A DNA stretch of 14,319 nucleotides from positions 1 through 14,319 of the forward strand of contig LJUI01000057.1 of the NCBI GenBank assembly GCA_001303705.1, read 5' to 3'. The stretch comes from a candidate division TA06 bacterium SM23_40 (GTDB taxonomy: Bacteria > LJUI01 > SM1-40). Of the stretch, positions 1-13,797 are shown piece by piece (position 1 is the first letter of the stretch; the number at the start of each line of letters is the position of its first letter). The position numbers and the translations under genes were made by a program. The notes under the pieces were generated by a model that did no database searches, was not told the origin of the DNA, and saw only the letters and a list, made by a program, of their open reading frames with translations.

Positions 1-157
1 CCAGCCAGTACCCGGCACCCACTCCCACAAAGAGGCTCTCGGCGAACTTGTACACGGGATTGTCGCGGTACAGAAAGCTGAAGATCGCGAGAGTGAGAAA
101 AGCTCCGACCCATATCCCGACCGTCTCAACCCACCCGAGTCCGCCAATCGTCTCCAC
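1..157 (-). CDS. Family D membrane protein, third copy (D3), 5' part only
   Basis: The first 52 codons of a family D polytopic membrane protein; the rest lies beyond the left edge. Read from a GTG at 157, it gives a short soluble start, a hydrophobic helix (about residues 13-31) and the family signature FLYRDNPVYKFAE, followed by LFVGVGAGYWL, which opens a second helix. The same signature occurs in D1 (8532-9209) and D2 (3405-4046). The GTG is chosen because AGGGGA lies 7 bases upstream and the start falls 13 bases after the C3 stop, as expected for a coupled downstream gene; no ATG is available. One difference from the other two copies: the signature reads AESL, not AEHL, so a histidine shared by D1 and D2 is a serine here. 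Function unknown. Confident as a family member, less so of the exact start. Confidence 0.85.
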   Translation of the reverse strand, partial: METIGGLGWVETVGIWVGAFLTLAIFSFLYRDNPVYKFAESLFVGVGAGYWL

Positions 158-170
158 GGCAGCGTCCCCT

Positions 171-1004
171 CTAGGCCTCGCTCTCTCTCCTCCGGGAGAG
201 AAGGTAGCTGATGTTCCCCAGGACAACGAACAGAATGATGAGGAGATGGACTGCAGACTGCGCATCCATTCCACGCGCCGCCGTGCCGGGCTGCTCGATC
301 AAGATCTCGTACTCCGCTGCTCCCGCCATGCCCCCGAGCAGGCCCAGCAGCTGACCGGATTCCATGTACGGATAGAAGTTCGGCGCGCTCACCGCTGTCA
401 CGCCCGCACCCATCGGGACGTCGAAGCGGCTCTGCACTTGCTGCACCCACTCCCGCGTTCCGGGAGTCCCGGCTGAGATACTCACAAGAAAAGCAATATC
501 GGCGAAGTTTGAGATTTTCCGCATGAGCGGCAGCTCCTCAACCGGCGTGAGGTAGAAGTCGCGGGGGAAGAGGCCGGGGATCGAGGTCCCCATCTCCACC
601 ATCGCATTCGGGCCGCCGGTTGTGTACCCCAGATTGACGTAGTCGACTCCGTACTCCTTCCCGTACTCTGCTGCGACCTGCTGGTGGGCGGCTTCGACGA
701 GCGGCGGCCCCTCCGGCCAGAGGCAGACGGAGATGACACGCAGGTTGCGGCTGAAGCAGTGGCGGTACACCGCCAGAGTCATCGGCTGGAGTTCCGGCAT
801 CCCGTCCGGGCTGTAGTCACCGGCGAGCATTACGATCGAACCCTCGGGCAGGCCCTCGATCTCGTCAAACAGACCCCGTGTCGATCGCCCAACCGCCACC
901 GGCAGGCGGAAGGGGAAGAGGAACGGCAGGACAACGCATATCGCGACGAAGAGGAAGACGACGCGTCGGTCGATGCTCTGGAGTCGTTCGAAGAATCGTA
1001 TCAT
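171..1004 (-). CDS. Family C membrane-anchored alpha/beta protein, third copy (C3), 277 aa
   Basis: Unrecognised protein, homologous to C1 and C2. One TM helix near residues 15-33 follows an arginine-rich start (MIRFFERLQSIDRR), then about 210 residues of alternating strands and helices, then a second TM helix near 250-269 and an arginine-rich tail. The positive-inside rule puts both ends in the cytoplasm and the soluble domain outside. Motifs shared by all three copies: MPELQPM (69-75), RHCF (81-84), DYVNLG (121-126), GVTAVSA (201-207), YPY, GLLGGM, GAAEYE (228-233) and GMDAQS just before the last helix. The frame is open upstream to 1148, but 1004 is chosen because GGAGGA lies about 11 bases before it, the product then matches C1 from its first residues, and the upstream extension would overlap B3. 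It starts 17 bases after B3 and ends 13 bases before D3. Function unknown. Confidence 0.9.
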   Translation of the reverse strand: MIRFFERLQSIDRRVVFLFVAICVVLPFLFPFRLPVAVGRSTRGLFDEIEGLPEGSIVMLAGDYSPDGMPELQPMTLAVYRHCFSRNLRVISVCLWPEGPPLVEAAHQQVAAEYGKEYGVDYVNLGYTTGGPNAMVEMGTSIPGLFPRDFYLTPVEELPLMRKISNFADIAFLVSISAGTPGTREWVQQVQSRFDVPMGAGVTAVSAPNFYPYMESGQLLGLLGGMAGAAEYEILIEQPGTAARGMDAQSAVHLLIILFVVLGNISYLLSRRRESEA

Positions 1005-1021
1005 GAGAGGGCCGATCCTCC

Positions 1022-1663
1022 CTATTCTCCGCCCAGGTATGCCCGTTCGATCCCGAGTATGATGCGCAGACCCATCGCCATGACCCCCATGGCAGCTCCC
1101 ATCATGATCCCGCGGAATCCGATCATATTCGGCACATTCATGATCCACTCCGTCACCACCGGCAGCTGCAGGGCTGTGGGCAGTCCTCTCGTCAACAGGC
1201 TACCCAGCGGTACCCGTCCCAGCATTACGATGACCGCTGCGAGCAGCAGGAGCGTGGCCTCCCAGTTGCGGACGCGAAAGGCGCGGTACGCCGCCGAGGC
1301 GATGAAGAACGCGAGAAGGGCGAACATCGTCATATCGAGGTGGACTTTCAGGTGCCGGAACAGGTAGTTGAATGGTGTGCCCTCTCCCACCCCCCAGACC
1401 AGACCGGTGATCATCATGGCGAACATGCCGGCCAGGAGTACAATGCTGTACGGCCAGCCGGCAGTGCGGCGAGGGATCCTCTCAAAGAGATGGATGCGCA
1501 GGAGATTACCGATCCCGAGGACGATGGAGGCGGCGATAACGATGACGCTCCACTGGCGGAGCTCAGACGCGGCGTTGGCCACCAGCGGATGGGGCACGAA
1601 GAAGTCGACGAGCTGGACGAACCCGGCCACGAAGGTGATGATCAGAGGGATCTCTCTACGCAT
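1022..1663 (-). CDS. Family B polytopic membrane protein, third copy (B3), 213 aa
   Basis: Integral membrane protein with about six TM helices, homologous to B1 and B2 and of the same length class (207-218 aa). The family core is clear: TMFALLAFFIASAAYRAFR, then EATLLLLAAVIVMLGRVPLG, then a C-terminal stretch ending ILGIERAYLGG. B1 and B2 share VPNLAAKRGIMIGVGLG, where this copy has VPNMIGFRGIMMGAAMG, so B3 is the most diverged of the three, like its partner A4. The ATG at 1663 aligns with the start of both other copies (MRREIP, MQRQIP, MRRQVP); GAGGAT lies about 11 bases upstream. Unlike the other copies it does not closely follow its A gene: 252 bases with a likely terminator and a heptamer array lie between them, so it may have its own promoter, though I could not pick one out. 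Function unknown. Confidence 0.9.
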   Translation of the reverse strand: MRREIPLIITFVAGFVQLVDFFVPHPLVANAASELRQWSVIVIAASIVLGIGNLLRIHLFERIPRRTAGWPYSIVLLAGMFAMMITGLVWGVGEGTPFNYLFRHLKVHLDMTMFALLAFFIASAAYRAFRVRNWEATLLLLAAVIVMLGRVPLGSLLTRGLPTALQLPVVTEWIMNVPNMIGFRGIMMGAAMGVMAMGLRIILGIERAYLGGE

Positions 1664-1681
1664 TATACTCGTTCATCCTCT

Positions 1682-1786
1682 CGCTTCACGCTTCACGCTT
1701 CACGCTTCACGCTTCACGCTTCACGCTTCACGCTTCACGCTTCACGCTTCACGCTTCACGCCTCACGCTTCACGCTTCACGCCTCA
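1682..1786. repeat. Heptamer tandem array, 15 copies of CGCTTCA
   Basis: Fifteen uninterrupted 7-bp units read on the plus strand as CGCTTCA (TGAAGCG on the transcribed strand). Thirteen are identical; the 12th (1759) and 15th (1780) read CGCCTCA. The array lies in the non-coding gap between A4 and B3, ending about 18 bases before the B3 start codon, so it would form most of a B3 leader. Heptamer arrays of this kind arise by slippage and are common in environmental bacterial genomes; no function is shown here. Confidence 0.98.
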
Positions 1787-1885
1787 CGCGTTTCTGCACG
1801 CCGCCCGATTCTCTGTACTTCATCTGTTCGGCGCGCCGCCAGTCCCTTCGTGGCACAGACGCCCGCACCAGTCACCCAATAGAAG

Positions 1886-1906
1886 AAAAACCGGCGTGGC
1901 AGCCGG
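1886..1906 (-). terminator. Probable intrinsic terminator after A4
   Basis: On the minus strand, 9 bases after the A4 stop codon, CCGGC and GCCGG form a 5-bp all-GC stem around a 6-base loop (TGCCAC), followed at once by TTTTTC. The stem is short, but the T run and its place directly behind a stop codon fit a Rho-independent terminator. It would end transcription between A4 and B3, inside what is one unit in the other cassettes. Confidence 0.55.
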
Positions 1907-1915
1907 AACGCGACT

Positions 1916-3187
1916 CTATTGCCCCGCCACATAGAAGAAGTTTCTGAAAATGTCGGCGATGGCTGTGAGCGGAGCGACCCCGAATGCCACCGCAGTCTCC
2001 ATGATCACTCCGACGATGATAGCGACCATGACGAACGCCTTCCCCAGATCCGAGCCCTTGAGACTCCCGAGCAGCTTCGGCTCGCGGGACAGGTATGCGC
2101 TCGCGGCATAGAGCTCCTCCCCGATCAGGGTGTAGTCGCATGCGGTGATGAAGAACGGCAGCTGGGATACCATCGCCGTGCCCGCGACCTGGATCGCCCC
2201 AGCTTCGAACCCGGTCTCCGCGAGCAGAAGCGACTCTGCCCAGAATGCCCCCATATAGAGGTTGGCCGCCGGCCTCTCACGGAGCATGATGCCGTTCACC
2301 GCGGCGGCGAACGCAAACTGGGCGTCGGAGAGATATCGTATATTGTCAGGATTGTACGCGTCGGGTTTGCCGACCGATAGATATGCCTCCTTCACAACCT
2401 CCTCGGCTGCGGACATGACGACAGCGCGGGCCGTGGGCACGAGGAGCGGGCTTTCGTATCTGGCCGTGATCTTGGCCACATGGGTCAAGATGGAGAGACT
2501 GGCCACGGTCATGATGTTGTCGATCTCACCGATCCCCGGAACATAGAGAACCGGTTTCCCCATCTCTGTGGCGCGTCCGATCGCCTCCTCGACCGCGGTC
2601 AGGCCGGGGATGCGACGGACGAAGAGCTCCTTCCCCCGCCGCGCCTGAGCGATGTATGTGAGCACGAAGCTGAAGAAGAGTACGAGGATGATGAACATGT
2701 TGAGCCTTCTTGTGCGGAACCAGTTGGCGCGGGAGGCCGCCGGCCCGCTCGGCTCAGAGTCGACAGTCTGCATGTCATCCTTCGCCCGCACAATGTAATA
2801 GTACGTCGTCCCATCGGTAGCCGTAGTGTCGACGTACGACTCAACGCCCGGCGGAACCTCGTCGATCAGTAGATACCCTCTGCCCGGCTGTGTTGAACGA
2901 AGGATATCATACCCCACGACATCGTCATCGCCCGCACCATCATCGCGCGACCGCGTCCAGCTGATGGCGATCTGCCTTCCCCCATCACCCGGCACATCGT
3001 GAGCGACAACTGAGGTCGCCGGTCCGGGAGGCCGAGTAGCGATGAAGGCCTCGAGAAACGCCGATTCGCCGAGGGGCTCCTCACCCGGCTGGAGCGGAGC
3101 ACCTGCCGCGCTCCCTCCGATGTCGATCCCTGCCGCAAGGGAGGCGATGAGCATGACGATGATAGAAATCGATGAATGCACGCTCAT
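1916..3187 (-). CDS. Family A FnIII-TM-alpha/beta-TM membrane protein, fourth copy (A4), 423 aa
   Basis: Homologue of A1-A3. Order: signal peptide (MSVHSSISIIVMLIASLAAG), low-complexity linker, one fibronectin type III domain (about 53-150), TM helix (162-180), a basic RRGKELFVRR stop-transfer segment, a ~200-residue alpha/beta domain (184-380) and a second TM helix (383-402). The alpha/beta domain resembles what I recall as DUF6754; not verified. The family's strongest block is intact: QLPFFI, then ACDYTLIGEELYAASAYLS, then GSLKG. This is the most diverged A copy (GTAMVSQLPFF where the others have GTDAVAQLPFF) and it has a longer C-terminal tail. The frame is open to 3307, but 3187 is chosen because AGGAG sits 5 bases upstream, the signal peptide begins there, and a promoter-like sequence lies inside the longer version. 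Likely topology: FnIII outside, alpha/beta domain in the cytoplasm. Confidence 0.9.
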   Translation of the reverse strand: MSVHSSISIIVMLIASLAAGIDIGGSAAGAPLQPGEEPLGESAFLEAFIATRPPGPATSVVAHDVPGDGGRQIAISWTRSRDDGAGDDDVVGYDILRSTQPGRGYLLIDEVPPGVESYVDTTATDGTTYYYIVRAKDDMQTVDSEPSGPAASRANWFRTRRLNMFIILVLFFSFVLTYIAQARRGKELFVRRIPGLTAVEEAIGRATEMGKPVLYVPGIGEIDNIMTVASLSILTHVAKITARYESPLLVPTARAVVMSAAEEVVKEAYLSVGKPDAYNPDNIRYLSDAQFAFAAAVNGIMLRERPAANLYMGAFWAESLLLAETGFEAGAIQVAGTAMVSQLPFFITACDYTLIGEELYAASAYLSREPKLLGSLKGSDLGKAFVMVAIIVGVIMETAVAFGVAPLTAIADIFRNFFYVAGQ

Positions 3188-3261
3188 CCGAGCTCCTGTA
3201 GGTCGGCCACTCTGTCTGGCATACGTATTCCCCGGTGCGCTGAGACCCAACTCCGAGCCGC

Positions 3262-3291
3262 ACCGTATCATATCCTCTGCGATCCTGTCAA
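3262..3291 (-). promoter_or_regulatory. Candidate sigma70-type promoter for A4
   Basis: A perfect -35 box TTGACA (3286-3291) is followed after 18 bases by TACGGT (3262-3267) as a weak -10. A better-looking TATGAT lies only 13 bases from the -35 and is too close. Transcription would begin about 70 bases before the A4 start. The 217-base D2-A4 gap is large for this cluster, which fits a promoter here. The weak -10 keeps this tentative. Confidence 0.4.
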
Positions 3292-3404
3292 GGCCCGCCT
3301 GTATCAATTTGCCCGGGGCCGCGTCGCCGGATCAGCGTCCCTGGCGCCGACGATGTCCGGCCGCCCGCCAGAGGCTCACCACGCCATAGCCCCCTCTCAA
3401 TTCA

Positions 3405-4046
3405 TCAGCGGATGAGCCCCAGCCAGTCCCGGAACAGAAACTGCATGCGCCCGATCAGGAGTGAGACGCGGGCCATCACGGTATATCCGAATGAGGCGCC
3501 GAATCCCACCATGAGGAACCAGATCCCGATCCTGCTCGCTCCACCCAGCACTCCCTTGTGTTCCCGCGAAAAGAAGAAGTAGAGAAGCGAGCAGATGAGG
3601 CCGATGAGAAGGAGCGCGGCCGTGATCGAGACGGTCGGGGCCATGGCAGCGTGAACCTGGGCCAGCACGCGCGCCTGCATGTAGGAGGGGATAGCGAGGC
3701 CGGCGTACCCTCCGACGTAGAACGCGATGGCATATCGGCTGATCCAGGCGAACCGGGGAAAGAACCTCGTGAACATGAGAAGTCCGAGCACGCCCGGAAC
3801 AAGGGGGAGGAGCACTCCACCTCTCAGCACCGGGACGAGGAGCTGCCCTACGATATTGGCGTTCCAGTAGATGAGGGCCCAGTATCCTGCCGACACGCCG
3901 ACGAGCAGGTGCTCGGCGAACTTGTAGAATGGATTGTCCCGGTACAGGAACGAATAGATGCACAGGGTCAAGATCGCCCCCACCCAGATGGCGAACCGTT
4001 CAGGAGTGAACGGCCAGAACCCTGTCCACAGAGAGACTTCGTTCAT
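3405..4046 (-). CDS. Family D polytopic membrane protein, second copy (D2), 213 aa
   Basis: Integral membrane protein with about five to six TM helices, homologous to D1 and the partial D3. Shared motifs: FLYRDNPFYKFAEHLLVG after the first helix, RFFPR before a middle helix, SIAFYVG/AIAFYVG, YFFFSR followed by a GVLG loop, and the near-invariant C-terminal GFGASFGYTVMAR plus SLLIGR and a DWLG ending. Its ATG overlaps the C2 stop by one base (TGATG), indicating translational coupling with C2. It is slightly shorter than D1 (225 aa) because the extramembrane loops in the first half and the middle are shorter. No catalytic motif is visible; the role is presumably structural or channel-like in a complex with A, B and C, but that is only inferred from linkage. 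The next gene, A4, begins after 217 bases. Confidence 0.9.
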   Translation of the reverse strand: MNEVSLWTGFWPFTPERFAIWVGAILTLCIYSFLYRDNPFYKFAEHLLVGVSAGYWALIYWNANIVGQLLVPVLRGGVLLPLVPGVLGLLMFTRFFPRFAWISRYAIAFYVGGYAGLAIPSYMQARVLAQVHAAMAPTVSITAALLLIGLICSLLYFFFSREHKGVLGGASRIGIWFLMVGFGASFGYTVMARVSLLIGRMQFLFRDWLGLIR

Positions 4047-5017
4047 CAGTCTGTACCCTTCCCCCGCGCCGACTCTGCGAGCTCCTCTGCCCGGCGCCTT
4101 CTCCTGAGCGTGAAGAATGCAGCGTTTCCCAGCACTATGAATGCAATAATGGCAGCATGGACGATGGACTGTGAATCCATCCCGATCGATGCCTCCCGGA
4201 ACCGCCTCTCGAGCGCGCGCAGCTGCGCCTCGGGGAGCGCACGGCGCCTCGCCTCGGCGATCCCCAGCTCTTCCTCGAGGTCGTTCACCAGCTTCTCGTA
4301 TTCCGAGGCTCCCTTCATCCCCCCGAGCAGACCGATGGCCTGTCCGGTATCGAGATAGGGATAAAAGTTGAGCGCCTGAACCGCAGTCACCCCGAGCGCC
4401 ACTTGCTGCCGGTAGGGCGTATTCGCGTACAGCACCCAGAACTCGGCAAGTGCGGTGGCGGCGATCGAGACGACGAGATCGATGTCATTGTAGGTATGCA
4501 CTTCCTCGAGGAGCTCGATCTCCCCGATGGGCACACCGCCGTAGTCACGTGGATAGACGCCGTGCAGATCCCGACCGATGGCCAGCATCACGGCCGACGC
4601 CCCTGCCATATATCCGAGATAGACGTAGTCTTCCTGGTTCACCTTTCCATAATCGGCGGCTACCTCGCTCATCGCGATCCGGCCCAGGGCCGTCCCGTCC
4701 GGGTGGTTGGCGACGCCGATGACGACAAGATCGCGGACGAAGCAGTGCCGGAGCACGGCTCTTACCATGGGATACATCTCGGGCATCGTCGACGGGCCGA
4801 AATCGAATGAGATGAGTACCACCGACCCTGGAGGGAGCGTTTCGACGTAGTCGAAGACCTGCCGCACCGGCTCGGTGACGTTGGTGGGCAGGCCAAGGGG
4901 GAAGAAGAACGGAATGACCACGGCGAGGGCGATGAGCAGATAGATGATCCGCCGGTCCAAGGCCTGGAGGTGCTCTTGCCATGTTCTCTTCTGTTTCATT
5001 TCCCCCCTCCCGTTCAT
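4046..5017 (-). CDS. Family C membrane-anchored alpha/beta protein, second copy (C2), 323 aa
   Basis: Homologue of C1 and C3. TM helix near 23-41, external alpha/beta domain (about 65-280), TM helix near 286-303, then an unusually basic tail (five consecutive arginines, then an acidic/basic end). Shared motifs present: TMPEMYPM, RHCF (90-93), DYVYLG, GVTAV, FYPYLDTGQ, GLLGGMKGASEYE, and GMDSQS before the last helix. It carries a charged insertion of about 26 residues between SEYE and GMDSQS (around 245-276), predicted helical, absent from C1 and C3. The frame is open to 5737, but that extension is an out-of-frame shadow of B2. Two starts, 5017 and 4999, each have their own GGAGGGGGGAA ribosome site; 5017 overlaps the B2 stop as ATGA and is chosen. 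The stop overlaps D2. Function unknown. Confidence 0.88.
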   Translation of the reverse strand: MNGRGEMKQKRTWQEHLQALDRRIIYLLIALAVVIPFFFPLGLPTNVTEPVRQVFDYVETLPPGSVVLISFDFGPSTMPEMYPMVRAVLRHCFVRDLVVIGVANHPDGTALGRIAMSEVAADYGKVNQEDYVYLGYMAGASAVMLAIGRDLHGVYPRDYGGVPIGEIELLEEVHTYNDIDLVVSIAATALAEFWVLYANTPYRQQVALGVTAVQALNFYPYLDTGQAIGLLGGMKGASEYEKLVNDLEEELGIAEARRRALPEAQLRALERRFREASIGMDSQSIVHAAIIAFIVLGNAAFFTLRRRRRAEELAESARGKGTD

Positions 5018-5028
5018 TTCCCCCCTCC
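4995..5028 (-). repeat. Duplicated ribosome-site/start module at the C2 start
   Basis: A perfect 16-bp repeat (4995-5010 and 5013-5028, period 18) places GGAGGGGGGAAATGAA twice in a row on the minus strand. Each copy has a strong purine-rich ribosome site and an in-frame ATG (5017 and 4999). The upstream copy also supplies the last codons and stop of B2. The two starts differ by exactly six codons. Confidence 0.9.
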
Positions 5029-5670
5029 AAGGTACGTACGTTCGATGCCGAGGATCACCTTGAGCGCCGTCGAGATCGATCCCAGGCCGACCCCGATCAT
5101 GATGCCCCGCTTGGCCGCGAGGTTGGGCACCGTCAGTATCCAGTCCGTGAGCGCGGGAATCCCCACCTGCTCCGGCAGCCAGGACGTGAGCAGATGCCCG
5201 AGGGGCACCCTGCCGAGCATCACCATGACCGCGGCCACGAGCAGGAGCGTCGCCTCCGGTGTTCTGGCCCGGAAGGTGCGGAACGCAGCTGAGGCGATGA
5301 AGAAGGCAAGCAGCGAGAACATGGTCGAGTCCATGGGGACCTGGATGTTCTGGAAGATCCACATGAACGGTGTCCCCTCCTGCAATCCCCTCCCGTCCAG
5401 ATCCCATGGCCTGCCGGCAAGGATCATCGCAAACAGTCCTATGATGACCACGGCGCTGTACCACCAACCCGTCTTGCGCTGGCGAAGCTTGGTGACGTGG
5501 AGCCGCGTGATGCTGAAGATCCCCAGCAACATCGCGAAAGTATAGATGAGTCGGAGCCAGGCGAGCAACGTCTGATTCGCGGTCTCCATGGCAGGGTGAG
5601 GCGTGAAGTACAGCGATGTCCCGAAGAGCCCGGCGAAGAAGGCGATCCCCAGTGGGATTTGACGTTGCAT
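5014..5670 (-). CDS. Family B polytopic membrane protein, second copy (B2), 218 aa
   Basis: Integral membrane protein with about six TM helices, homologous to B1 and B3. Shared core: VPMDSTMFSLLAFFIASAA, then FRARTPEATLLLVAA, then MLGRVPLG, then LTVPNLAAKRGIMIGVGLG, ending ILGIERTYLGGGK. It is very close to B1 in the last 40 residues, which supports cassettes 1 and 2 being the most recent pair. The ATG at 5670 has GGAG 7 bases upstream and aligns with the starts of B1 and B3. It begins 23 bases after the A3 stop and ends in a 4-base ATGA overlap with C2, so A3-B2-C2-D2 looks like one tightly packed transcription unit. The conserved basic ring after the fourth helix (RTFRAR here, RAFRAR in B1) suggests a cytoplasmic loop. 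No enzymatic motif seen; function unknown. Confidence 0.9.
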   Translation of the reverse strand: MQRQIPLGIAFFAGLFGTSLYFTPHPAMETANQTLLAWLRLIYTFAMLLGIFSITRLHVTKLRQRKTGWWYSAVVIIGLFAMILAGRPWDLDGRGLQEGTPFMWIFQNIQVPMDSTMFSLLAFFIASAAFRTFRARTPEATLLLVAAVMVMLGRVPLGHLLTSWLPEQVGIPALTDWILTVPNLAAKRGIMIGVGLGSISTALKVILGIERTYLGGGK

Positions 5671-5693
5671 GAGATGTCTCCGCGGCAGACTGG

Positions 5694-6938
5694 CTACCGT
5701 GCAGCGAACAGCCCGCGGAACCAGTCGAAGCGTGCAACTGAGAGCACTGCTCCGGTGATCGCCAGTACGACGAGAATCAGCTTAGCCCAATCCTGCCCCT
5801 TGAGGCTCCCGAGGAGGAGCGGCTCGCGCGAGAGGTAGGCACTCGCCGCATACAGTTCCTCGCCTATAAGTGTATAGTCGCACGCTGTGATGAAGAATGG
5901 AAGCTGGGCAACTGCGTCCGTGCCCGCAATCTGGATCGCGCCCGTCGATGCCCCTGTCTCCGCGAGGATGAGCGACTCCGCATAGAAATAGCCCATGAAG
6001 AAGTTCGTCGCCGGCCGATCCCGCACCATGATGCCGTCGACGGCAGCGGTATAGCCAAACTGGCTATTCGTCACATAGAAGACCATCTCCTCCCGGTATG
6101 CGTCCGGTCTCCCGACCTCGAGAAACGCCTCCTTGACCACTTCCTGCTCTACCGCCATCACCATCGGATCGTAACAGGGAACGACGAGCTTTGAACCGTA
6201 CTCTGCGGCCCTCCTCGCCACCCTTCCCAGGATGTTGATCGCCGCGAGCGTGGCAACGTCGTCCATCGGATTGAGCCCGGAGACGTAAAGGATCGGCTTT
6301 CCCAGCTCGGTCGCCCGCCCAACCGCCTCGTCCACTGCCTCCAGACCGGCGATCTTGCGAATGAAGAGCTCTGTCCCGCGCCTGGCGCGGGAGATGAACC
6401 AGATAAGCAGCGCGGCGAAGCCGACTATACTGACGAGTACGCTCGTGCGGCCGAAGTTGAACCACTGCGGCCCGGCGAGGGCGCTCGTACCCCCGGCACC
6501 ACGGCTCGCCACGTCGCCGGCCATCGCGGTGACGAAGTAGGTGTACGGCGTTCCGTCCTCGACAGGCGAGTCGACATAGGTATCGACGCCAGGCCCCAGG
6601 GCAGCGAGCAGCATGGGCTCGCCCCCTGAGGTGTCGACGCGCGAGATGACATACCCGGTTACGGTGCCGAGCCCCGCTCCGTCATCCGGAGAGAGGTCCC
6701 ATCTCAATGTGATCGCTCCTCCCCCATCGTTTGGGGTGTCGGAGGCGCGGATGTTGGCTGGAGGCGCGGGGGAGACGGCGGAGAGATCAAGGGGAGTTGC
6801 GGGACCGACCGCCACCTCGGCCCGGGCGTGCGGGATGAGGAGAACGCCTACAAGAGGTATGAGAAGGACGAGCGAGCGCGCCGACCCGGCCGCACGGAGC
6901 ACTGCCGCGAGGAGTGCGGGGCGGCGAGGGTTGACCAT
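5694..6938 (-). CDS. Family A FnIII-TM-alpha/beta-TM membrane protein, third copy (A3), 414 aa
   Basis: Homologue of A1, A2 and A4. Signal peptide with an arginine-containing start and hydrophobic LVLLIPLVGVLLIP, cleavage likely after AHARA-type residues near 40. One FnIII domain follows (about 58-155; DTPNDGGGAITLRW is its typical first strand pair), then a TM helix (166-183), basic RARRGTELFIRK, the alpha/beta domain (187-385) and a second TM helix (388-403). The invariant block (QLPFFI, ACDYTLIGEELYAASAYLS, GSLKGQD) is intact. The frame is open to 7136, but that would overlap A2 and add a non-hydrophobic, proline- and arginine-rich stretch; 6938 puts the signal peptide at the N-terminus. 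Its ribosome site is weak (GGAAG, 14 bases away), so the start is the least certain part. The A2-A3 gap of 163 bases shows no convincing promoter. Confidence 0.88.
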   Translation of the reverse strand: MVNPRRPALLAAVLRAAGSARSLVLLIPLVGVLLIPHARAEVAVGPATPLDLSAVSPAPPANIRASDTPNDGGGAITLRWDLSPDDGAGLGTVTGYVISRVDTSGGEPMLLAALGPGVDTYVDSPVEDGTPYTYFVTAMAGDVASRGAGGTSALAGPQWFNFGRTSVLVSIVGFAALLIWFISRARRGTELFIRKIAGLEAVDEAVGRATELGKPILYVSGLNPMDDVATLAAINILGRVARRAAEYGSKLVVPCYDPMVMAVEQEVVKEAFLEVGRPDAYREEMVFYVTNSQFGYTAAVDGIMVRDRPATNFFMGYFYAESLILAETGASTGAIQIAGTDAVAQLPFFITACDYTLIGEELYAASAYLSREPLLLGSLKGQDWAKLILVVLAITGAVLSVARFDWFRGLFAAR

Positions 6939-7101
6939 GTCACGTACCGCAGCTTCCGGTGCTATGCACCGCAGGGCGGGCGGAATACGGCTCGCCACCC
7001 TCGGCGACAATGCCGCGAGGCCGGGCCCGGCAGGAAAGCCTGCTGCCCTACAGAGTCGACCATCCATATGGAGTCCGTTCAGAGATGGGGCAGGCGATCG
7101 C

Positions 7102-8376
7102 TCACCCCGCGGAGAAGAGCCGGGAGAATCCTGCAATCCCGAGGGTGGTGGCCAGAATACCCGCAGCCATGAGCGCCGCGATCAGGAGTTTCGCCATATC
7201 CTGACCCTTGAGGCTTCCGAGCGCGAGCGGCTCTCGCGAGAGGTAAGCACTCGCCGCATACAGCTCCTCGCCGATGAGTGTGTAGTCGCAGGCGGCAATG
7301 AAGAAGGGGAGCTGCGCCACGGCATCCGTGCCGGAGATCTGGATCGCACCCACGCTGTTGCCGGTCTCGGCGAGGATGAGCGACTCCGCCCAGAACATGC
7401 CGAGGAGGAAGATCGTCGCCGGACGCTCGCGCACCATGATGCCGTCAACCGCGGAGACATAGCCGAACTGGCTGTAGGTGATGTAGCTGATGTCGTTCGC
7501 GTCGTATGCGTCAGGTCGCCCGGCCTCAGTATAGGCCTCGCGGACGATCTCCTGGGCGACCGGCATCACGACAGGATCAGTGCAGGGGACGATGAGGCGA
7601 CTCTCATAATCAGCGGCCCGGCGAGCCACCCGGGAGAGGATATTGAGCGAGGCCAGGGTGGCGACATCACTGATGGTGCTCAATCCCGGGACGTACAGGA
7701 TCGGTTTTCCCATCTCAGTCGCGCGCCCAAGCGCCTCGTCAACCGCCTCGAGCCCGGCGATGCGTCGGACGTAGAGATCCCGCCCCCGGCGCGCAACGGT
7801 GATGAAGCCTGCGAGCAGAGAGGTGTAGACGACGACGCCGACGAGTACGTTAACCCTCCCCCGGTGAAAGAGCTGGGCCGAGGCCAGGGCAGGGCCGGAC
7901 GGCTGCGACATCGGAGTAGTGAATTCCCGGGCGCCTGCCTGCCCCACGGCGCGGACTCTGTACGCAAAGGAGCGTCCATCCTCAGCCGCACCGTCGGTGA
8001 ACTGAGCGAGGCCACCGGATACCGTGCCCACGAGTTCCCACTCCCCATCAGGGTGCTCAGCACGCCATATCTCGTACGAGGTGATGGAGAGGGCGGGACG
8101 AATCTCAGAAGGAAGCTCTTCCCACCTCACGGTGATGCTTCCTCCTGCGTCGTTCGGCGTGTCGTACGCAGAGACTCCAGCAGGTGGCGGGATGTCCGCG
8201 GAAAATGCTTCCGGGGGAGAGGCGGCATCGCCGAGACCTCCCTCTCCGGGCGCCTGTCCGAGGAGAGGTGACGATGCGAATAACAGAGCGACAAGGGCAA
8301 TATAGAACGAGGCCAGGACCCGGCCTCGGCATGGTATATACTGTGCTCGGTCCAAACAGGGGCTCTCTCTTCTCAT
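7102..8376 (-). CDS. Family A FnIII-TM-alpha/beta-TM membrane protein, extra copy (A2), 424 aa
   Basis: Homologue of A1, A3 and A4, but with no B, C, D genes of its own: the next gene downstream is another A. Residues about 23-41 form the hydrophobic core of a signal peptide (FYIALVALLFASS), followed by an acidic linker, an FnIII domain (about 62-165, with YDTPNDAGGSITVRW), TM helix (174-193), basic ARRGRDLYVRR, the alpha/beta domain (198-392) and a final TM helix (396-413). The invariant block is intact. It is closest to A1: both have QLFHRGRVNVLVGVV leading into the first TM helix and share ASLNILSRVAR. The ATG at 8376 is the only reasonable start and has GGGAG about 11 bases away. It starts 155 bases after D1. 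It may be a duplicate of A1, or what remains of a cassette that lost B-C-D. Confidence 0.9.
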   Translation of the reverse strand: MRRESPCLDRAQYIPCRGRVLASFYIALVALLFASSPLLGQAPGEGGLGDAASPPEAFSADIPPPAGVSAYDTPNDAGGSITVRWEELPSEIRPALSITSYEIWRAEHPDGEWELVGTVSGGLAQFTDGAAEDGRSFAYRVRAVGQAGAREFTTPMSQPSGPALASAQLFHRGRVNVLVGVVVYTSLLAGFITVARRGRDLYVRRIAGLEAVDEALGRATEMGKPILYVPGLSTISDVATLASLNILSRVARRAADYESRLIVPCTDPVVMPVAQEIVREAYTEAGRPDAYDANDISYITYSQFGYVSAVDGIMVRERPATIFLLGMFWAESLILAETGNSVGAIQISGTDAVAQLPFFIAACDYTLIGEELYAASAYLSREPLALGSLKGQDMAKLLIAALMAAGILATTLGIAGFSRLFSAG

Positions 8377-8521
8377 CCCATTGATGCTCCCGCCATTTCC
8401 CCTCGCCTATCGACAAGCTACTACGAGCATACCCGCCGGCTCCTCCACCAGTCATGCGCACATCGCTCAGGCATCCCAGGACCCGGTCGACGATCCCCAG
8501 CCGGATCATCGTCCTTCCATC

Positions 8522-8543
8522 TACTCGATGATTACTCGATGAT
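8522..8543. repeat. 11-bp tandem duplication across the D1 stop codon
   Basis: TACTCGATGAT occurs twice without a gap (8522-8532 and 8533-8543, plus strand). The D1 stop codon (8532-8534) lies on the join; the second unit repeats the last codons of D1 just downstream of it. Confidence 0.9.
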
Positions 8544-9209
8544 CCCCAGCCAGTCGCTCAGCAAAAAGTAGACACGGCCGATCAGGAGCGAGATACGGGC
8601 CATCACCGTATATCCGAACGACGCGCCGAACCCGATCATGAGGAAGACGATCCCGATTCGCGATGTCACACCAAGGACACCTCGATGCGGCCGGGAGAAG
8701 AAGAAGTAACTGAGGGTGCAGAGCACCCCCACAGCAGCAAGAGGGACGCTCATCAGCCAGAGTCCGTTCCAGATCGTCGGCTCTGCGAGAAGCGTCCGCC
8801 ATGCCTGAGTCGGGATGAACGAGACCATCGTCCCCTGCATCTGCTGGATGATCCGGGTGAGCATCGTTCGAGGAATGGAGAGTCCGGCTCCCGACCCCAC
8901 ATAGAATGCGATCGACCAGCGGCTGAGCCACCCACCACGGGGGAAGAAGCGGAGGAAGAAGAATATCCCCAGGATGCCGGGGATGATGAGGATGAAGTTC
9001 CCGTGCTGGCCTTCGGTGACCGCAGCCCACAGGGGTCTGGCCAGGTTGGGCAGCACCGAGTTATGGTAATAGATGACGAGGTAGTACGCGGCCGAGACCC
9101 CGACGAACAGATGCTCTGCCGCCTTGTACACCGGGTTGTCGCGATAGAGGAACGAGTAGATACAGAATGTCAGGAGCGCAGCCAGCCAGACCCAGAGATC
9201 AGTCGACAT
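8532..9209 (-). CDS. Family D polytopic membrane protein, first copy (D1), 225 aa
   Basis: Integral membrane protein with about five to six TM helices (near 4-22, 33-50, 70-88, 97-112, 148-170, 183-205). Shared family motifs: FLYRDNPVYKAAEHLFVG (20-37), RFFPRGG, SIAFYVGSGAG, YFFFSR plus GVLG, and the near-invariant GFGASFGYTVMAR (193-205), SLLIGR and a DWLG ending. A longer loop in the middle (around 112-147) accounts for most of its extra length over D2. The ATG at 9209 lies 4 bases after the C1 stop with a strong purine-rich ribosome site (GGAGGAGAGG) inside the end of C1. Role unknown; its constant position as last gene of the cassette and the coupling to C suggest a stoichiometric partner of C. 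An 11-bp tandem duplication spans its stop codon. A 155-base gap follows before A2. Confidence 0.92.
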   Translation of the reverse strand: MSTDLWVWLAALLTFCIYSFLYRDNPVYKAAEHLFVGVSAAYYLVIYYHNSVLPNLARPLWAAVTEGQHGNFILIIPGILGIFFFLRFFPRGGWLSRWSIAFYVGSGAGLSIPRTMLTRIIQQMQGTMVSFIPTQAWRTLLAEPTIWNGLWLMSVPLAAVGVLCTLSYFFFSRPHRGVLGVTSRIGIVFLMIGFGASFGYTVMARISLLIGRVYFLLSDWLGIIE

Positions 9210-9213
9210 TGCC

Positions 9214-10056
9214 CTATCCTCTCCTCCCTCCCCCGGCAGCCCCGCGCCGCTGGACGAAGAAGGCGACGTTTCCGATGATGACGAAGACTATGATGATCAA
9301 GTGGGCGATCGATTGCCCATCCATCCCGATTATCGCCCTCCCCGGTACACCAATGAGGTACTCGTACTCGGCAGCACCCTTGAGCCCACCGATCAGGCCG
9401 AAGAGCTGGCCTGTCTGAAGAAACGGGTAGTAGTCGGTCGCCGACACCGCGGTGCAGCCCGCCGCCACCGGCTCCTGATAGGGGCCGTTGGCGTAGGCAA
9501 CCCAGGCCTCGGTGATGGCGCTCGCGGCGAACGTAACGATGAGAGAGATATCATCGTAGGTATGGATATCTGCGATCATAGGGATCTCGGAGAGCGGGGT
9601 GCCGAAGTAGTCTTCGGGGAATGCCCGGTGGATGTCCTGACCCATCTGGTCGATGACCATGGCGATAGCCGGCTTGAACCCGAGGAAGACGTAATCGATG
9701 CCGTTCACCTTGCCGTACTCCTCGGCCGCCTCGGACGTGGCGTCGAGCGCCAGACCGGGGCCAGCCTGGTGGAGCGTCATCGTGATCACCTTCAGATCTT
9801 TGGAGAAGCAATGGCGGAGCACGGCGAGCGTCATGGGCTGGAGCTCAGGCATCGCCGCTGGATCGTAATCGATCGAGATGAGTACCGGCGGGTCGTCCGG
9901 TGTGAGCGTCTCTATCCGATCATAGACATCCTTGACGCGGCGCGTCACGTAAGTGGGCAGGCGTAGCGGGAATATGAACGGAATGAGGACGGCCAGCGCG
10001 ATACAGAGAAAGATAATCCGTCTATCGATGTGCATCAGACGTTCGAACAATCCCAT
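9214..10056 (-). CDS. Family C membrane-anchored alpha/beta protein, first copy (C1), 280 aa
   Basis: Unrecognised two-helix membrane protein. A basic start (MGLFERLMHIDRR) precedes TM helix 13-30; residues about 55-245 alternate strands and helices (VLISIDY, KVITMTL, IDYVFLG and SLIVTF are likely strands); TM helix 249-268 is followed by an arginine/glycine tail. Positive-inside reasoning places both ends in the cytoplasm and the domain outside. Motifs common to all three C copies: MPELQPM (69-75), RHCF (81-84), YGK (114-116), DYVFLG (121-126), CTAVSA (201-206; TAV invariant), YPF, GLIGGLKGAAEYE (220-232) and GMDGQS (244-249). ATG at 10056 has GGAGGAT 8 bases upstream, 29 bases after B1. The domain pattern recalls the cytoplasmic domain of family A. 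No classical catalytic triad or nucleotide-binding loop is evident; function unknown. Confidence 0.92.
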   Translation of the reverse strand: MGLFERLMHIDRRIIFLCIALAVLIPFIFPLRLPTYVTRRVKDVYDRIETLTPDDPPVLISIDYDPAAMPELQPMTLAVLRHCFSKDLKVITMTLHQAGPGLALDATSEAAEEYGKVNGIDYVFLGFKPAIAMVIDQMGQDIHRAFPEDYFGTPLSEIPMIADIHTYDDISLIVTFAASAITEAWVAYANGPYQEPVAAGCTAVSATDYYPFLQTGQLFGLIGGLKGAAEYEYLIGVPGRAIIGMDGQSIAHLIIIVFVIIGNVAFFVQRRGAAGGGRRG

Positions 10057-10085
10057 CGAATGTTATCCTCCCGATCTCGCTCCCA

Positions 10086-10709
10086 TCAGTCGCCGCCGCC
10101 GATCCAGGAGCGCTCGATGCCGAGGATGATCTTCACCGCGGTCGATATCATCCCCAGCCCGACCCCTATCATGATCCCTCGCTTCGCCGCGAGGTTCGGC
10201 ACCTCGAGTATCCACTCCGTGATCCGGGGAAATCCTGCCCATATGCTCTGGCCGATGGGAACCCGGCCGAGCATGACAATGCCCGCAGCGAGGAGCAAGA
10301 GTGTCGCCTCCAGGGTGCGGGCACGGAAGGCACGGTACGCCGCCGAGGCAATATAGAATGCGAGAAGCGAGAACATCGTCCCCTCAAGGGGCACCTGGAC
10401 ATAGTTGTACAATTTCATGAACAGGCCTTCCTGCCCGATGCCGCCGAAAAATCCCACAGCGAGCGTGAGGACGAGGCCTCCCATAGCGATTAAGCTGTAC
10501 CACCACCCTGAGGCGCGTCTCCTGATCCTTGCCCAGTGGACTCTGATCAGGCTCCCGGTGCCGAGGACGAGCGCGAACGTGAAGACGATCAGGTACCATG
10601 TCCTGATCGTCTCACCATAGACCAGTGAAACACGATGCGGGATGAAGTACTGAATCGCCATCGTTACGCCGAGGAAGAAGCAGATGGCGAGCGGAACCTG
10701 ACGCCGCAC
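10086..10709 (-). CDS. Family B polytopic membrane protein, first copy (B1), 207 aa
   Basis: Integral membrane protein with about six TM helices (near 5-24, 37-56, 69-88, 110-126, 133-150, 176-195), homologous to B2 and B3. Shared core: VPLEGTMFSLLAFYIASAA (106-124), YRAFRAR, EATLLLLAAGIVMLGRVPIG (134-153), VPNLAAKRGIMIGVGLG (170-186) and the C-terminal ILGIERSWIGG. The start is a GTG at 10709 with GGAG 8 bases upstream; it aligns with the ATG starts of B2 and B3 (MRRQVP, MQRQIP, MRREIP), so the GTG is well supported. It starts 42 bases after A1 and ends 29 bases before C1. Two basic stretches (RIRRR before helix 3, RAFRAR after helix 4) indicate cytoplasmic loops. No enzymatic motif seen; I do not recognise the family. 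Confidence 0.9.
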   Translation of the reverse strand: MRRQVPLAICFFLGVTMAIQYFIPHRVSLVYGETIRTWYLIVFTFALVLGTGSLIRVHWARIRRRASGWWYSLIAMGGLVLTLAVGFFGGIGQEGLFMKLYNYVQVPLEGTMFSLLAFYIASAAYRAFRARTLEATLLLLAAGIVMLGRVPIGQSIWAGFPRITEWILEVPNLAAKRGIMIGVGLGMISTAVKIILGIERSWIGGGD

Positions 10710-10751
10710 GTAATCATCTCCTTTCGATTGCAGATATCGAGGCCACGCCGC

Positions 10752-11951
10752 CTATCCGGCGGCGAAGAGGCCGACGAAGCGTGGCCACCCAAAGGTCGTG
10801 AAGATCATGCCCACAATGATGAGGGTAGCGATGAGGAGCTTGGCCAGATCCTGTCCCTTCAGGCTTCCGAGCTGAAGCGGCTCGCGCGACAGATAGGCGC
10901 TGGCCGCGTACAATTCTTCTCCGATGAGTGTGTAGTCGCACGCAGCGATGAAAAACGGGAGCTGGGCGACTGCGTCGGTGCCGGCGATCTGTATCGCACC
11001 GATGCCCGCCCCCGTCTCGGCCAGAATGAGCGACTCGGCCCAGAACATCCCGAGGAAGAAGTTGGTCGCCGGCCGATCCCGCAGCATAATGCCGTCGACC
11101 GCTGCCACATATCCGAACTGACTGAAGGTGACGTAGTAGATGTCGTCCTCACGGTAGGCATCCGGATGTCCCATATCCGTGTAGGCCTCGCGGACGATCT
11201 CCTGGCAGACAGGCATCACCACTGGATTTCGATTGGGGATGACGATCCGGGTCTCATACTCGGCAGCCTTCCGCGCAACCCGGCTCAGGATGTTGAGCGA
11301 AGCGATCGTCGCCACGTCCTGGATCACGCTCAGGCCGGGCACATAGAGGATCGGCTTCCCCATCTCCGTCGCCCGCCCGATCGCCTCGTCCACGGCCTCC
11401 AACCCCGCGATCCTGCGGACATAGAGTTCCTTGCCCCCCTTTGCCTGCTGGATGAATAAGACGAGAAATGCGGTAAACAGGACGACCCCCACCAGGACAT
11501 TCACTCTACCGCGGTGGAAGAGCTGGCCGCTCGACCTGACTGGCGCTGTCGGATCGGCGTCGGCGGTCAATCCGTCGTGCACGCGGACGACGTAGCTGTA
11601 TTCGACCCCATCATACACTGAAGCGTCCTCGAACGCCGTCGTCCCCGCGACAACGCTCCCCACGGAGACGAGCGCAGGATCGAGCGATGAGCTCCGCAGT
11701 ATCTCATATGTGACCGGACGCCTCTCTGCCTCTGCGGACGAAGGCGACCAGGTGACCGTAATACTCCCACCTGCGTCGTTCGGGGTATCAAATGCCCGTA
11801 CATTGCTGGCCGGCTCAGGGGGAGCCAATCCCTCGAGCACCGACTCTCCTATCTGGGCGCCGGCGAGAGAGAAAAGAAAGAGGCCGCCGATGGTGAGAAG
11901 GAGCAGTGCCGATACCGCTCCTCGACCGCCATCAGACGGCCCTCGTGACAT
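10752..11951 (-). CDS. Family A FnIII-TM-alpha/beta-TM membrane protein, first copy (A1), 399 aa
   Basis: First gene of the cassette cluster. Signal peptide 1-32 (hydrophobic ALLLLTIGGLFLFSLAGA), fibronectin type III domain about 45-140 (FDTPNDAGGSITVTW, then YEILRS, then YSYVVRVHD mark its strands), TM helix 150-168, basic KGGKELYVRR, alpha/beta domain 171-367, TM helix 370-387. The domain begins GLEAVDEAIGRATEMGKPIL and contains the block found in all four copies: QLPFFI (330-335), ACDYTLIGEELYAASAYLS (337-355), GSLKGQD. It resembles my memory of DUF6754, unverified. The FnIII domain should be outside and the alpha/beta domain in the cytoplasm. The frame is open to 12020; 11951 is chosen because the signal peptide then sits at the N-terminus and GGAAG plus a G-rich run lie upstream, while 12020 has no ribosome site. 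A promoter with an inverted repeat lies about 140 bases upstream. Confidence 0.9.
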   Translation of the reverse strand: MSRGPSDGGRGAVSALLLLTIGGLFLFSLAGAQIGESVLEGLAPPEPASNVRAFDTPNDAGGSITVTWSPSSAEAERRPVTYEILRSSSLDPALVSVGSVVAGTTAFEDASVYDGVEYSYVVRVHDGLTADADPTAPVRSSGQLFHRGRVNVLVGVVLFTAFLVLFIQQAKGGKELYVRRIAGLEAVDEAIGRATEMGKPILYVPGLSVIQDVATIASLNILSRVARKAAEYETRIVIPNRNPVVMPVCQEIVREAYTDMGHPDAYREDDIYYVTFSQFGYVAAVDGIMLRDRPATNFFLGMFWAESLILAETGAGIGAIQIAGTDAVAQLPFFIAACDYTLIGEELYAASAYLSREPLQLGSLKGQDLAKLLIATLIIVGMIFTTFGWPRFVGLFAAG

Positions 11952-12148: not shown

Positions 12149-12321
12149 ATAACCTTCAGCACCTGACAACGTCCCTGACTGCCGGACCCTCGCAGAATGG
12201 TCCTCAGAGGAGAACAGGTGTTGGTAACCTTCAAAACCCAGATACGTGCCCGGAGTAACCTACAGAACCTACCAACGTCCCCCGGGTGACGGGGTAACCT
12301 TCTGAACCTACCAACGTCCCC
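12149..12321. repeat. Four copies of a ~28-bp dispersed repeat
   Basis: On the minus strand the unit reads GGGGACGTTGGTAGGTT, then about two variable bases, then AAGGTTA. Copies: 12294-12321 and 12255-12282 (nearly identical), 12224-12251 (degenerate in its first half) and 12149-12176 (intermediate). Start-to-start spacings are 39, 31 and 75 bases, so it is not a CRISPR array. Copy 12294-12321 ends 6 bases from the propeller-gene stop codon. Repeats of this style in intergenic DNA suggest a REP-like or transposase-associated element; no transposase is in the window. Confidence 0.75.
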
Positions 12322-12327
12322 GGGTGA

Positions 12328-13791
12328 TTAGCGCAGAAGAGCCATGCGCTTCGTGTCGGTGAACTCGCCTGTCTCGAGGCGGCAGAAGTAGATACCGCTC
12401 GCCACCTTCCGTCCTCGCTGGTCCCGTCCGTCCCACACAACGCTGTGGAAGCCGGCGGGAACCGTCTCCTGCGCCAGAGTGCGCACCAGAGCGCCCCGGA
12501 TGTCATAGACCGCCACTTTCACCGGAGTCCCGGCGCTCAGCGAGTAGCAGATCGTCGTGGAGGAACCGAACGGGTTGGGACGGTTCTGCGCGAGATACTG
12601 TGCCACCGCGGGCAGCTCATCCTCACCTTCGGAAACGCCGACCATGCCATCGGCGTCGGTCTTGATCAGATAGACATCATCCTCGACATCGCCCGGGGGC
12701 CAGGTGTATCCGACGACGATGTATCCCCCATCGAGAGTCTGAGCGACCGAATATCCTCCATCCCACGCCAGGCCGGCGTACGCACGCGTCCACAGCGTAT
12801 CGCCCGCTGAGTCGGTCCTAATCAGGTAGAGGTCCTCGATGCCCGTGGGGAAGGGCTCGCCGTATCCGGTGATAATGTATCCTCCGTCGTTTGTCTGTGC
12901 GACCGAATAGCCTCCATCTGCATACGGGCCGCCATACGTACGCGTCCAGATTGTATCGCCGACACCGTCGGTTTTAACCAGATAGACATCCCTATCGCCG
13001 GCTCCATACGACTCGGTCTCTCCGACGATGATATATCCCCCATCGCTCGTCTGGGCGACCGAGAAGCCCCCCTCGTAGTTTGGGCCGCCATAGGTGCGCG
13101 TCCACATGGTATCGCCAAGGGAGTCAGTCTTGATCACATAGATGTCCCAGGACCCCGCGCCGAAGGTCGTCGTGCCCCCGGCCACGATGTATCCTTCATC
13201 GAGAGTTTGCGCGACCGACTCGCCAGAGTCGTAACTGGAACCGCCGTACGTGCGCGTCCAGACCGTATCGCCATTCGCGTCAACCTTGATCAGGACTACG
13301 TCGCTAAGTTCTGCGCCGTAGGATTCGGTGTACCCCGTGACGACGAATCCGCCATCGAGCGTCGGCGCGACCGACCTGCCCGTCTCCGTCTGCGGGCCGC
13401 CGTACGGGCGTGTCCACACCGTGTGGCCATCGGCATCCGTCCTGACCAGGTATATATCGGTCTGGCCCTCACCGAAAGACGTTGTGTTACCAGCGATGAT
13501 ATATCCCCCATCGAGCGTCAGGGCAACCGACCTGCCTCCATCGGTCTGGGGGCCGCCAAAAGTCGTCGACCATGATGTGGACCCCCATGCATCAGTCTTG
13601 ATCAGCCAGAGGTCCGACTGGCCGGCCCCGTAGGACCGAGTCGTTCCGGCGACGATATATCCCCCGTCGGGCGTCTGGGCGACCGACCGGCCCAGATCAC
13701 TGGAGGCGCCACCATAGGTGCGCTCGAACGTGATCTGAGCAGCGGCGGTCAACGGCACCAGCAGAGCGAGCACGAACGCCAAGGTTCTCAT
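12328..13791 (-). CDS. Secreted seven-repeat beta-propeller protein with FlgD-like/Por-type C-terminal tail, 487 aa
   Basis: Extracellular or surface protein. Signal peptide 1-18 (MRTLAFVLALLVPLTAAA), then seven repeats of about 52 residues (25-388), each running from a TYGG-like opening through SVAQTxDGGYIxxG to DxYLIKTDxxGDTxWT, the count expected for one seven-bladed propeller. After a linker, residues about 403-487 form the sorting-type tail: QNRPNPFGSSTTI, VAVYDIRGALVRTL, VWDGRDQRGRKVASGIYFCR, ending KRMALLR. Such tails are typical of proteins exported by type IX-like systems in the FCB group and of related uncultured phyla. ATG at 13791 is preferred to the in-frame ATG at 13797 because AGGAG lies 6 bases before it but directly against the other. 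Ligand unknown; no catalytic residues evident. Nothing ties it functionally to the downstream cassettes, which have their own promoter. Confidence 0.92.
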   Translation of the reverse strand: MRTLAFVLALLVPLTAAAQITFERTYGGASSDLGRSVAQTPDGGYIVAGTTRSYGAGQSDLWLIKTDAWGSTSWSTTFGGPQTDGGRSVALTLDGGYIIAGNTTSFGEGQTDIYLVRTDADGHTVWTRPYGGPQTETGRSVAPTLDGGFVVTGYTESYGAELSDVVLIKVDANGDTVWTRTYGGSSYDSGESVAQTLDEGYIVAGGTTTFGAGSWDIYVIKTDSLGDTMWTRTYGGPNYEGGFSVAQTSDGGYIIVGETESYGAGDRDVYLVKTDGVGDTIWTRTYGGPYADGGYSVAQTNDGGYIITGYGEPFPTGIEDLYLIRTDSAGDTLWTRAYAGLAWDGGYSVAQTLDGGYIVVGYTWPPGDVEDDVYLIKTDADGMVGVSEGEDELPAVAQYLAQNRPNPFGSSTTICYSLSAGTPVKVAVYDIRGALVRTLAQETVPAGFHSVVWDGRDQRGRKVASGIYFCRLETGEFTDTKRMALLR

Positions 13792-13797
13792 AGCCAT

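Follow-up and report, generated by a model that had tools for sequence, protein, structure and literature searches.

The window examined here is a complete contig of 14,319 bp (LJUI01000057.1; contig C183 of genome G000) from candidate division TA06 bacterium SM23_40, a metagenome-assembled genome of 2.88 Mb that is the sole member of its phylum in our genome set. It carries thirteen consecutive minus-strand genes, all of them open, which fall into four families of putative membrane proteins, A to D, and read A1 B1 C1 D1 A2 A3 B2 C2 D2 A4 B3 C3 D3 (Table 1). An A-B-C-D cassette is thus present three times, with one extra A (A2) directly before A3, and this arrangement, already described in the initial annotation, is confirmed by the open reading frames, by alignments and by Pfam matches. 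The A1 gene starts with the ATG at position 11951, and D3 is truncated by the contig end, the D profile matching at G000:C183:2-127. Identity to the first copy in alignments is 47-62% for A, 48-54% for B, 46-52% for C and 56-64% for D. The tight junctions reported in the initial annotation were found at B2/C2 (ATGA, 5014-5017), C2/D2 (TGATG, 4044-4048) and C1/D1 (4 bp between 9214 and 9209), but not throughout the array, as A4 and B3 are 252 bp apart. Within the A4-B3 spacer the 7-bp unit CGCTTCA occurs 15 times (window 1682-1789).

Family A corresponds to the Pfam entry DUF6754 (PF20539), which the four copies match with E values of about 1e-117 to 1e-122, far beyond chance, and with scores of 391-407 bits, all above the gathering score of 27. 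In all four proteins the match covers the cytosolic domain and the C-terminal transmembrane (TM) helix, and it is preceded by an FnIII domain whose profile matches titin FnIII chains (1.5e-26). AlphaFold models lay out A as FnIII, TM, (beta-alpha)6 and TM (mean pLDDT 92.6 for A1), and C as TM, a Rossmann-like (beta-alpha)6 domain and TM. Positive-inside charge counts predict that the FnIII domain of A faces outwards, that its alpha/beta domain lies in the cytosol, and that the domain of C is on the outer side, in line with the earlier proposal of FnIII outside and alpha/beta domains on both faces of the membrane.

Table 1 Genes of the A-B-C-D array in the window.
Gene	Coordinates	Strand	Features
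A1	10752..11951	-	signal/TM, FnIII, TM, Rossmann-like (beta-alpha)6, TM; DUF6754 Pfam E 8e-122
B1	10086..10709	-	six predicted TM helices; GTG start
C1	9214..10056	-	TM, Rossmann-like domain, TM; AlphaFold mean pLDDT 95.6
D1	8532..9209	-	about six predicted TM helices
A2 (extra A)	7102..8376	-	DUF6754 E 2e-117
A3	5694..6938	-	DUF6754 E 1e-120; ATG most likely at 6938
B2	5014..5670	-	54% identity with B1 by alignment
C2	4046..5017	-	ATGA overlap with B2; 52% identity with C1
D2	3405..4046	-	one-base overlap with C2 (TGATG); 56% identity with D1
A4	1916..3187	-	DUF6754 E 3e-119; ATG most likely at 3187
B3	1022..1663	-	48% identity with B1 by alignment
C3	171..1004	-	46% identity with C1 by alignment
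D3	1..157	-	cut by contig end; 64% identity with D1 over the part present

The other three families gave no Pfam match above cut-off, nor did B, C1 and D give any in NCBIfam, and, in a search by sequence profile, B and D matched no PDB chain up to an E value of 5. A fold search with the A model returned FnIII matches only. For C the Foldseek matches were weak (best 1e-4, TM-score about 0.3), and the domain aligned with MT0777 (1kjn; VIA Z 9.8, rmsd 3.7, 139 residues aligned), the ACDS/CODH epsilon subunit (9c0r; VIA Z 9.5, rmsd 3.1, 145 aligned) and UbiX (VIA Z 8.5, rmsd 3.5, 144 aligned) at 6-10% identity, with middling Z values and no common motif. As the scores are middling and the nearest folds are of the general Rossmann-like type, C was given no family assignment and is regarded as an instance of a common arrangement. 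The order of elements is identical in the C model and in the TM-domain-TM part of the A model, and a profile-profile comparison of A with C (P 0.012) stayed in register over the whole TM-(beta-alpha)6-TM unit; for B against D the value was P 0.047. Both values are too weak to establish A and C, or B and D, as clear sequence paralogs, and a common origin of A and C is therefore given only as possible, on the strength of profiles and models.

When scanned, the GTDB species genomes gave at least 558 A relatives, and the locus counts are based on the best 80. Contiguous A, B, C and D genes in this order were seen in 67 of the 80 loci, in one to three sets and often as two or three in tandem; of the remaining 13 loci six were cut by contig ends and two reflected effects of open reading frame calling. 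The 80 loci span at least nine candidate phyla, with record titles that name WOR-3, Stahlbacteria, TA06, Zixiibacteriota, Latescibacterota, Eisenbacteria, Edwardsbacteria, Poribacteria, Coatesbacteria and Fermentibacteria/Sabulitectum. The check proposed in the initial annotation, a search for the same gene order in other genomes, thus gave A-B-C-D loci in unrelated bacteria, which supports its claim of a multi-subunit membrane system. Family A was absent from the 14 well-known control genomes tested for it. An origin in defence, phage or plasmid functions was rejected, as A1, B1, C1 and D1 had no match among the anti-phage defence models of PADLOC and A was unmatched in phage, plasmid and viral records.

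The outer part of A is its variable part and ranges from no FnIII domain at all (loci L104, L106, L130 and L131) to an extension of roughly 600 residues in which FnIII-like matches recur (L092, 5907-8759, as well as L093, L094, L096 and L097). D is interrupted near profile position 130 by an insertion of several hundred residues in G051:C75 and G193:C9, and divergent D homologs (E about 1e-33), possibly from a related system, occur in two genomes without a detected A (G093:C20 and G231:C25).

Clustering of the genes that flank A-B-C-D loci revealed further partners. A gene named E lies directly upstream of A in many loci, with a gene M upstream of E and often a small gene F before M, so that the core order is F-M-E-A-B-C-D. 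Contiguous (F-)M-E-A-B-C-D stretches are found in genomes that are not closely related, namely in L092, L097, L109, L130, L143-L146, L151, L155, L157 and L169, while L104 reads A-B-C-D-M-E and L131 and L142 have the same genes shuffled. The initial annotation, which had proposed a four-gene system, had therefore recognized the membrane module but only that half of the system, as M, E and F had escaped it. In the genome of the window a single F-M-E set is located on contig C72, with E running to the contig end, and two further cassettes are located on C119 and C133.

M belongs to the GlmL/MutL family (PF13941, about 1e-127). The M protein from the genome of the window matches PF13941 over its full length, positions 1-450, with 413.5 bits (about 1e-124), and contains the sequences DCGSTTTKA, DIGGATTD and GSGG, the first two of which we take to be the phosphate-1 and phosphate-2 motifs of nucleotide binding, all three as expected for an ASKHA fold. 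E combines a barrel-sandwich hybrid domain with a conserved KOW-like stretch at the C-terminus. Its first domain resembles the N-terminal domain of RnfC and NqrA weakly, with partial matches to RnfC_N, NQRA_N and Biotin_lipoyl that are mostly under the curated cut-off, whereas the rest of E, including the KOW-like end, differs and gave no clear match. Separate E proteins remained below the Pfam cut-off, which the M-E fusion of L061 alone exceeded (NQRA_N, 27.6 versus 25 bits). Such fusions, single chains of about 1,000 residues, form a sister group (L061:17747-20560 and L112-L119); they are mostly found away from A-B-C-D cassettes, and the one in L116 adjoins kdsA- and kdsD-like genes. In L128 (G030:C48) diverged M-like and E-like genes are adjacent among housekeeping genes, with the cassette of that genome located elsewhere. 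Apparent joins of B-C-D and of M-E in L107 and L127 were discarded as spurious stop-to-stop frames in GC-rich DNA.

To quantify the association, 290 genomes were sampled from across bacteria, in most cases with one or two from each family; the counts are not corrected for relatedness but span many families. A was detected in 77 genomes and D in 79, with both in 76. E was present in 72 genomes, all of them A-positive, and a long M in 74, with A and M together in 72. Full-length E is mostly a single-copy gene, in comparison with up to seven A genes per genome, and one M-E pair usually accompanies one to seven cassettes. The genome of L131, of only 0.9 Mb, carries one cassette and a full F-M-E set. 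We consider it very probable that the A-B-C-D, M, E and F genes form one system.

The relationship between tandem cassettes was analyzed in a tree of 146 cassettes, where near-identical loci shared between collections (such as L009 and L152) add some redundancy to the counts; such pairs were excluded from the analyses of position, partner choice and distances. In the tree 61 of 64 array cassettes are nearest to a cassette of another locus, and recent tandem duplication is rejected on this basis. Among arrays of two cassettes, the closest cassette in another two-cassette array was at the matching position in 32 of 34 cases, against 17 expected; for arrays of three the figures were 16 of 30 against 10 expected. 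In 625 of 1,658 comparisons the four genes agreed on one partner cassette, about four times the 154 expected by chance, and the distance matrices of the four families correlate with r values of 0.74-0.84. The excess of shared partners and the matrix correlation, together with nearest cassettes lying elsewhere, argue that cassettes evolve as units and that arrays hold old subtypes; judging from these sequence comparisons, tandem cassettes appear to be mostly old paralogous subtypes and not fresh copies. The initial annotation had left a choice between three paralogous complexes and one hetero-oligomer, and the former is favoured by the nearest cassettes being found across genomes, by the many genomes with a single cassette, and by the shared choice of partner.

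From gene content, gene order, co-occurrence and predicted folds we infer the following function. B and D would form the membrane core, with A placing its alpha/beta domain in the cytosol and its FnIII domain outside, and C its alpha/beta domain outside. M together with E would dock on A, and the ATP cycle of M would switch the conformation of the membrane complex; the outcome would most likely be transport or export through the inner membrane, or else the assembly of some part of the envelope, and different substrates or steps would fall to different paralogous cassettes. To this account as a whole, one conserved F-M-E-A-B-C-D system with an A-B-C-D membrane module, an M-E drive and a role in transport or the envelope, we assign a probability of roughly 45%. 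Several points weigh against it. The contact between M-E and the cassette proteins and the action of the ATPase are read from genes and predicted folds; B and D match no transporter, channel or secretion family in Pfam, NCBIfam or PDB profiles; the predicted topology of C depends on a modest charge bias; Pfam scans of neighbours outside the core point to no single substrate; and six A-positive genomes, some of them incomplete, have no detected M or E (G007, G030, G058, G077, G217 and G255).

The same architecture could also be that of an envelope sensor or regulator, in which the outer domains, FnIII and that of C, detect a signal at the surface and relay it via B and D to the cytosolic domain of A, which recruits M-E. 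The joining of an outside and an inside domain in A by one TM helix, together with the variability of the FnIII part, would suit a receptor, and several cassettes per M-E pair would fit many receptors with one transducer. However, two six-TM subunits exceed the needs of a receptor, and neither a kinase nor a response regulator nor a cyclase is constantly found nearby, so that we regard a sensor as rather unlikely.

The family membership of M invites a different explanation. GlmL/MutL proteins assist adenosylcobalamin glutamate mutase and ornithine aminomutase in an ATP-dependent manner, and the cassette proteins could accordingly belong to an enzyme complex in the membrane that serves amino acid or one-carbon metabolism, M being its ATP-dependent reactivating chaperone. 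Binding of nucleotides or cofactors is common among Rossmann-like domains, the stretch just before M-E carries glycine cleavage genes in 11 genomes including that of the window, and lipoate ligase is a neighbour in five cases. Most M-E loci, however, lack the glycine cleavage linkage, and E has no invariant lysine able to carry lipoate or biotin. Moreover, M differs from GlmL/MutL in length (about 565-750 versus about 445-510 residues), and the M proteins of L086, L062 and L061 stay under the NCBIfam cut-offs, with at best 231 of 475 bits for GlmL and 219 of 600 for Or-4. The mutase subunit GlmE (PF06368) was found in only five of the 290 genomes, four of which pair it with a short classic GlmL. 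Only G118 has both GlmE and a long M, and there GlmE adjoins a separate short GlmL. As GlmE, the one B12 mutase searched for, is absent from 71 of the 72 genomes with A and a long M, a role of M as glutamate-mutase reactivase is not supported and seems unlikely, and the enzyme complex in general we judge about as improbable as the sensor.

Dedicated export of secreted proteins with FlgD_ig/Por tails, similar in function to type IX secretion, was set aside as very improbable since the association is incomplete: a DUF5122/FlgD_ig protein gene adjoins the array of the window, and ten or more FlgD_ig matches occur in 33 of 77 A-positive genomes compared to 22 of 213 others, but 44 A-positive genomes have fewer than ten and some none, the 22 A-negative genomes have many, and the enrichment may reflect shared ancestry.

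Returning to the proposed transport or envelope machine, the claim of an undescribed system holds as far as no described system of such composition was found, with the qualification that A is already catalogued; DUF6754 is a Pfam entry of unknown function, and no record was found that connects it with B, C, D, M or E. The literature searched on DUF6754, PF20539, PF13941 and GlmL contexts, which mostly did not include subscription papers, does not mention the family and contains no description of the system. Four of the subunits have no family assignment, and no known complex has such a make-up. The system could tentatively be seen as a new class, a membrane machine powered by an ATPase of Hsp70/actin fold, in which a shared ATPase-adaptor pair would serve several paralogous four-subunit complexes with related Rossmann domains of A and C on opposite faces, wide in uncultured bacteria and kept in a genome of 0.9 Mb; this we hold to be less likely than not. 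A system of six to seven genes, present in about a quarter of the sampled genomes and unmentioned in the literature searched, represents a large blind spot, and its retention in the 0.9 Mb genome points to a core role. With the genes now listed precisely, studies of expression, structure and deletion can be undertaken; finding a substrate or a phenotype would uncover a process not seen in model organisms.

Apart from M, E and F, Pfam scans of the neighbouring genes revealed no partner that was constant. The region upstream of the array in the window (12251-12327 and 12328-13797) holds the gene for the secreted repeat protein with DUF5122 and FlgD_ig domains and, after the stop of this gene, a 39-bp direct repeat; the cassette on C119 seems to have a similar neighbour. 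The glycine cleavage genes upstream of F-M-E (gcvPB, in places gcvPA, gcvH and gcvT) are those of L088, L127, L135, L136, L155, L156, L157, L158, L161, L163 and L169. In 12 loci the first gene upstream of F-M-E encodes an undescribed predicted membrane protein, H, of about 140 residues that looks PH-domain-like by eye (for example L130:5521-5958, L157:5912-6367 and L135:6134-6622). LpxB is among the cassette neighbours in the smallest genomes according to Pfam, presumably accompanied there by CdsA and a diacylglycerol-kinase-like protein, which were recognized by sequence only. We draw no function from the glycine cleavage, lipoate ligase, H, LpxB, CdsA or diacylglycerol-kinase-like neighbours. 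In a WOR-3 group (L031, L050, L056, L065 and L071) a DUF4388 gene comes after the cassette, and genes resembling those for ExbB/TolQ, ExbD and TonB, their order conserved, lie farther along.

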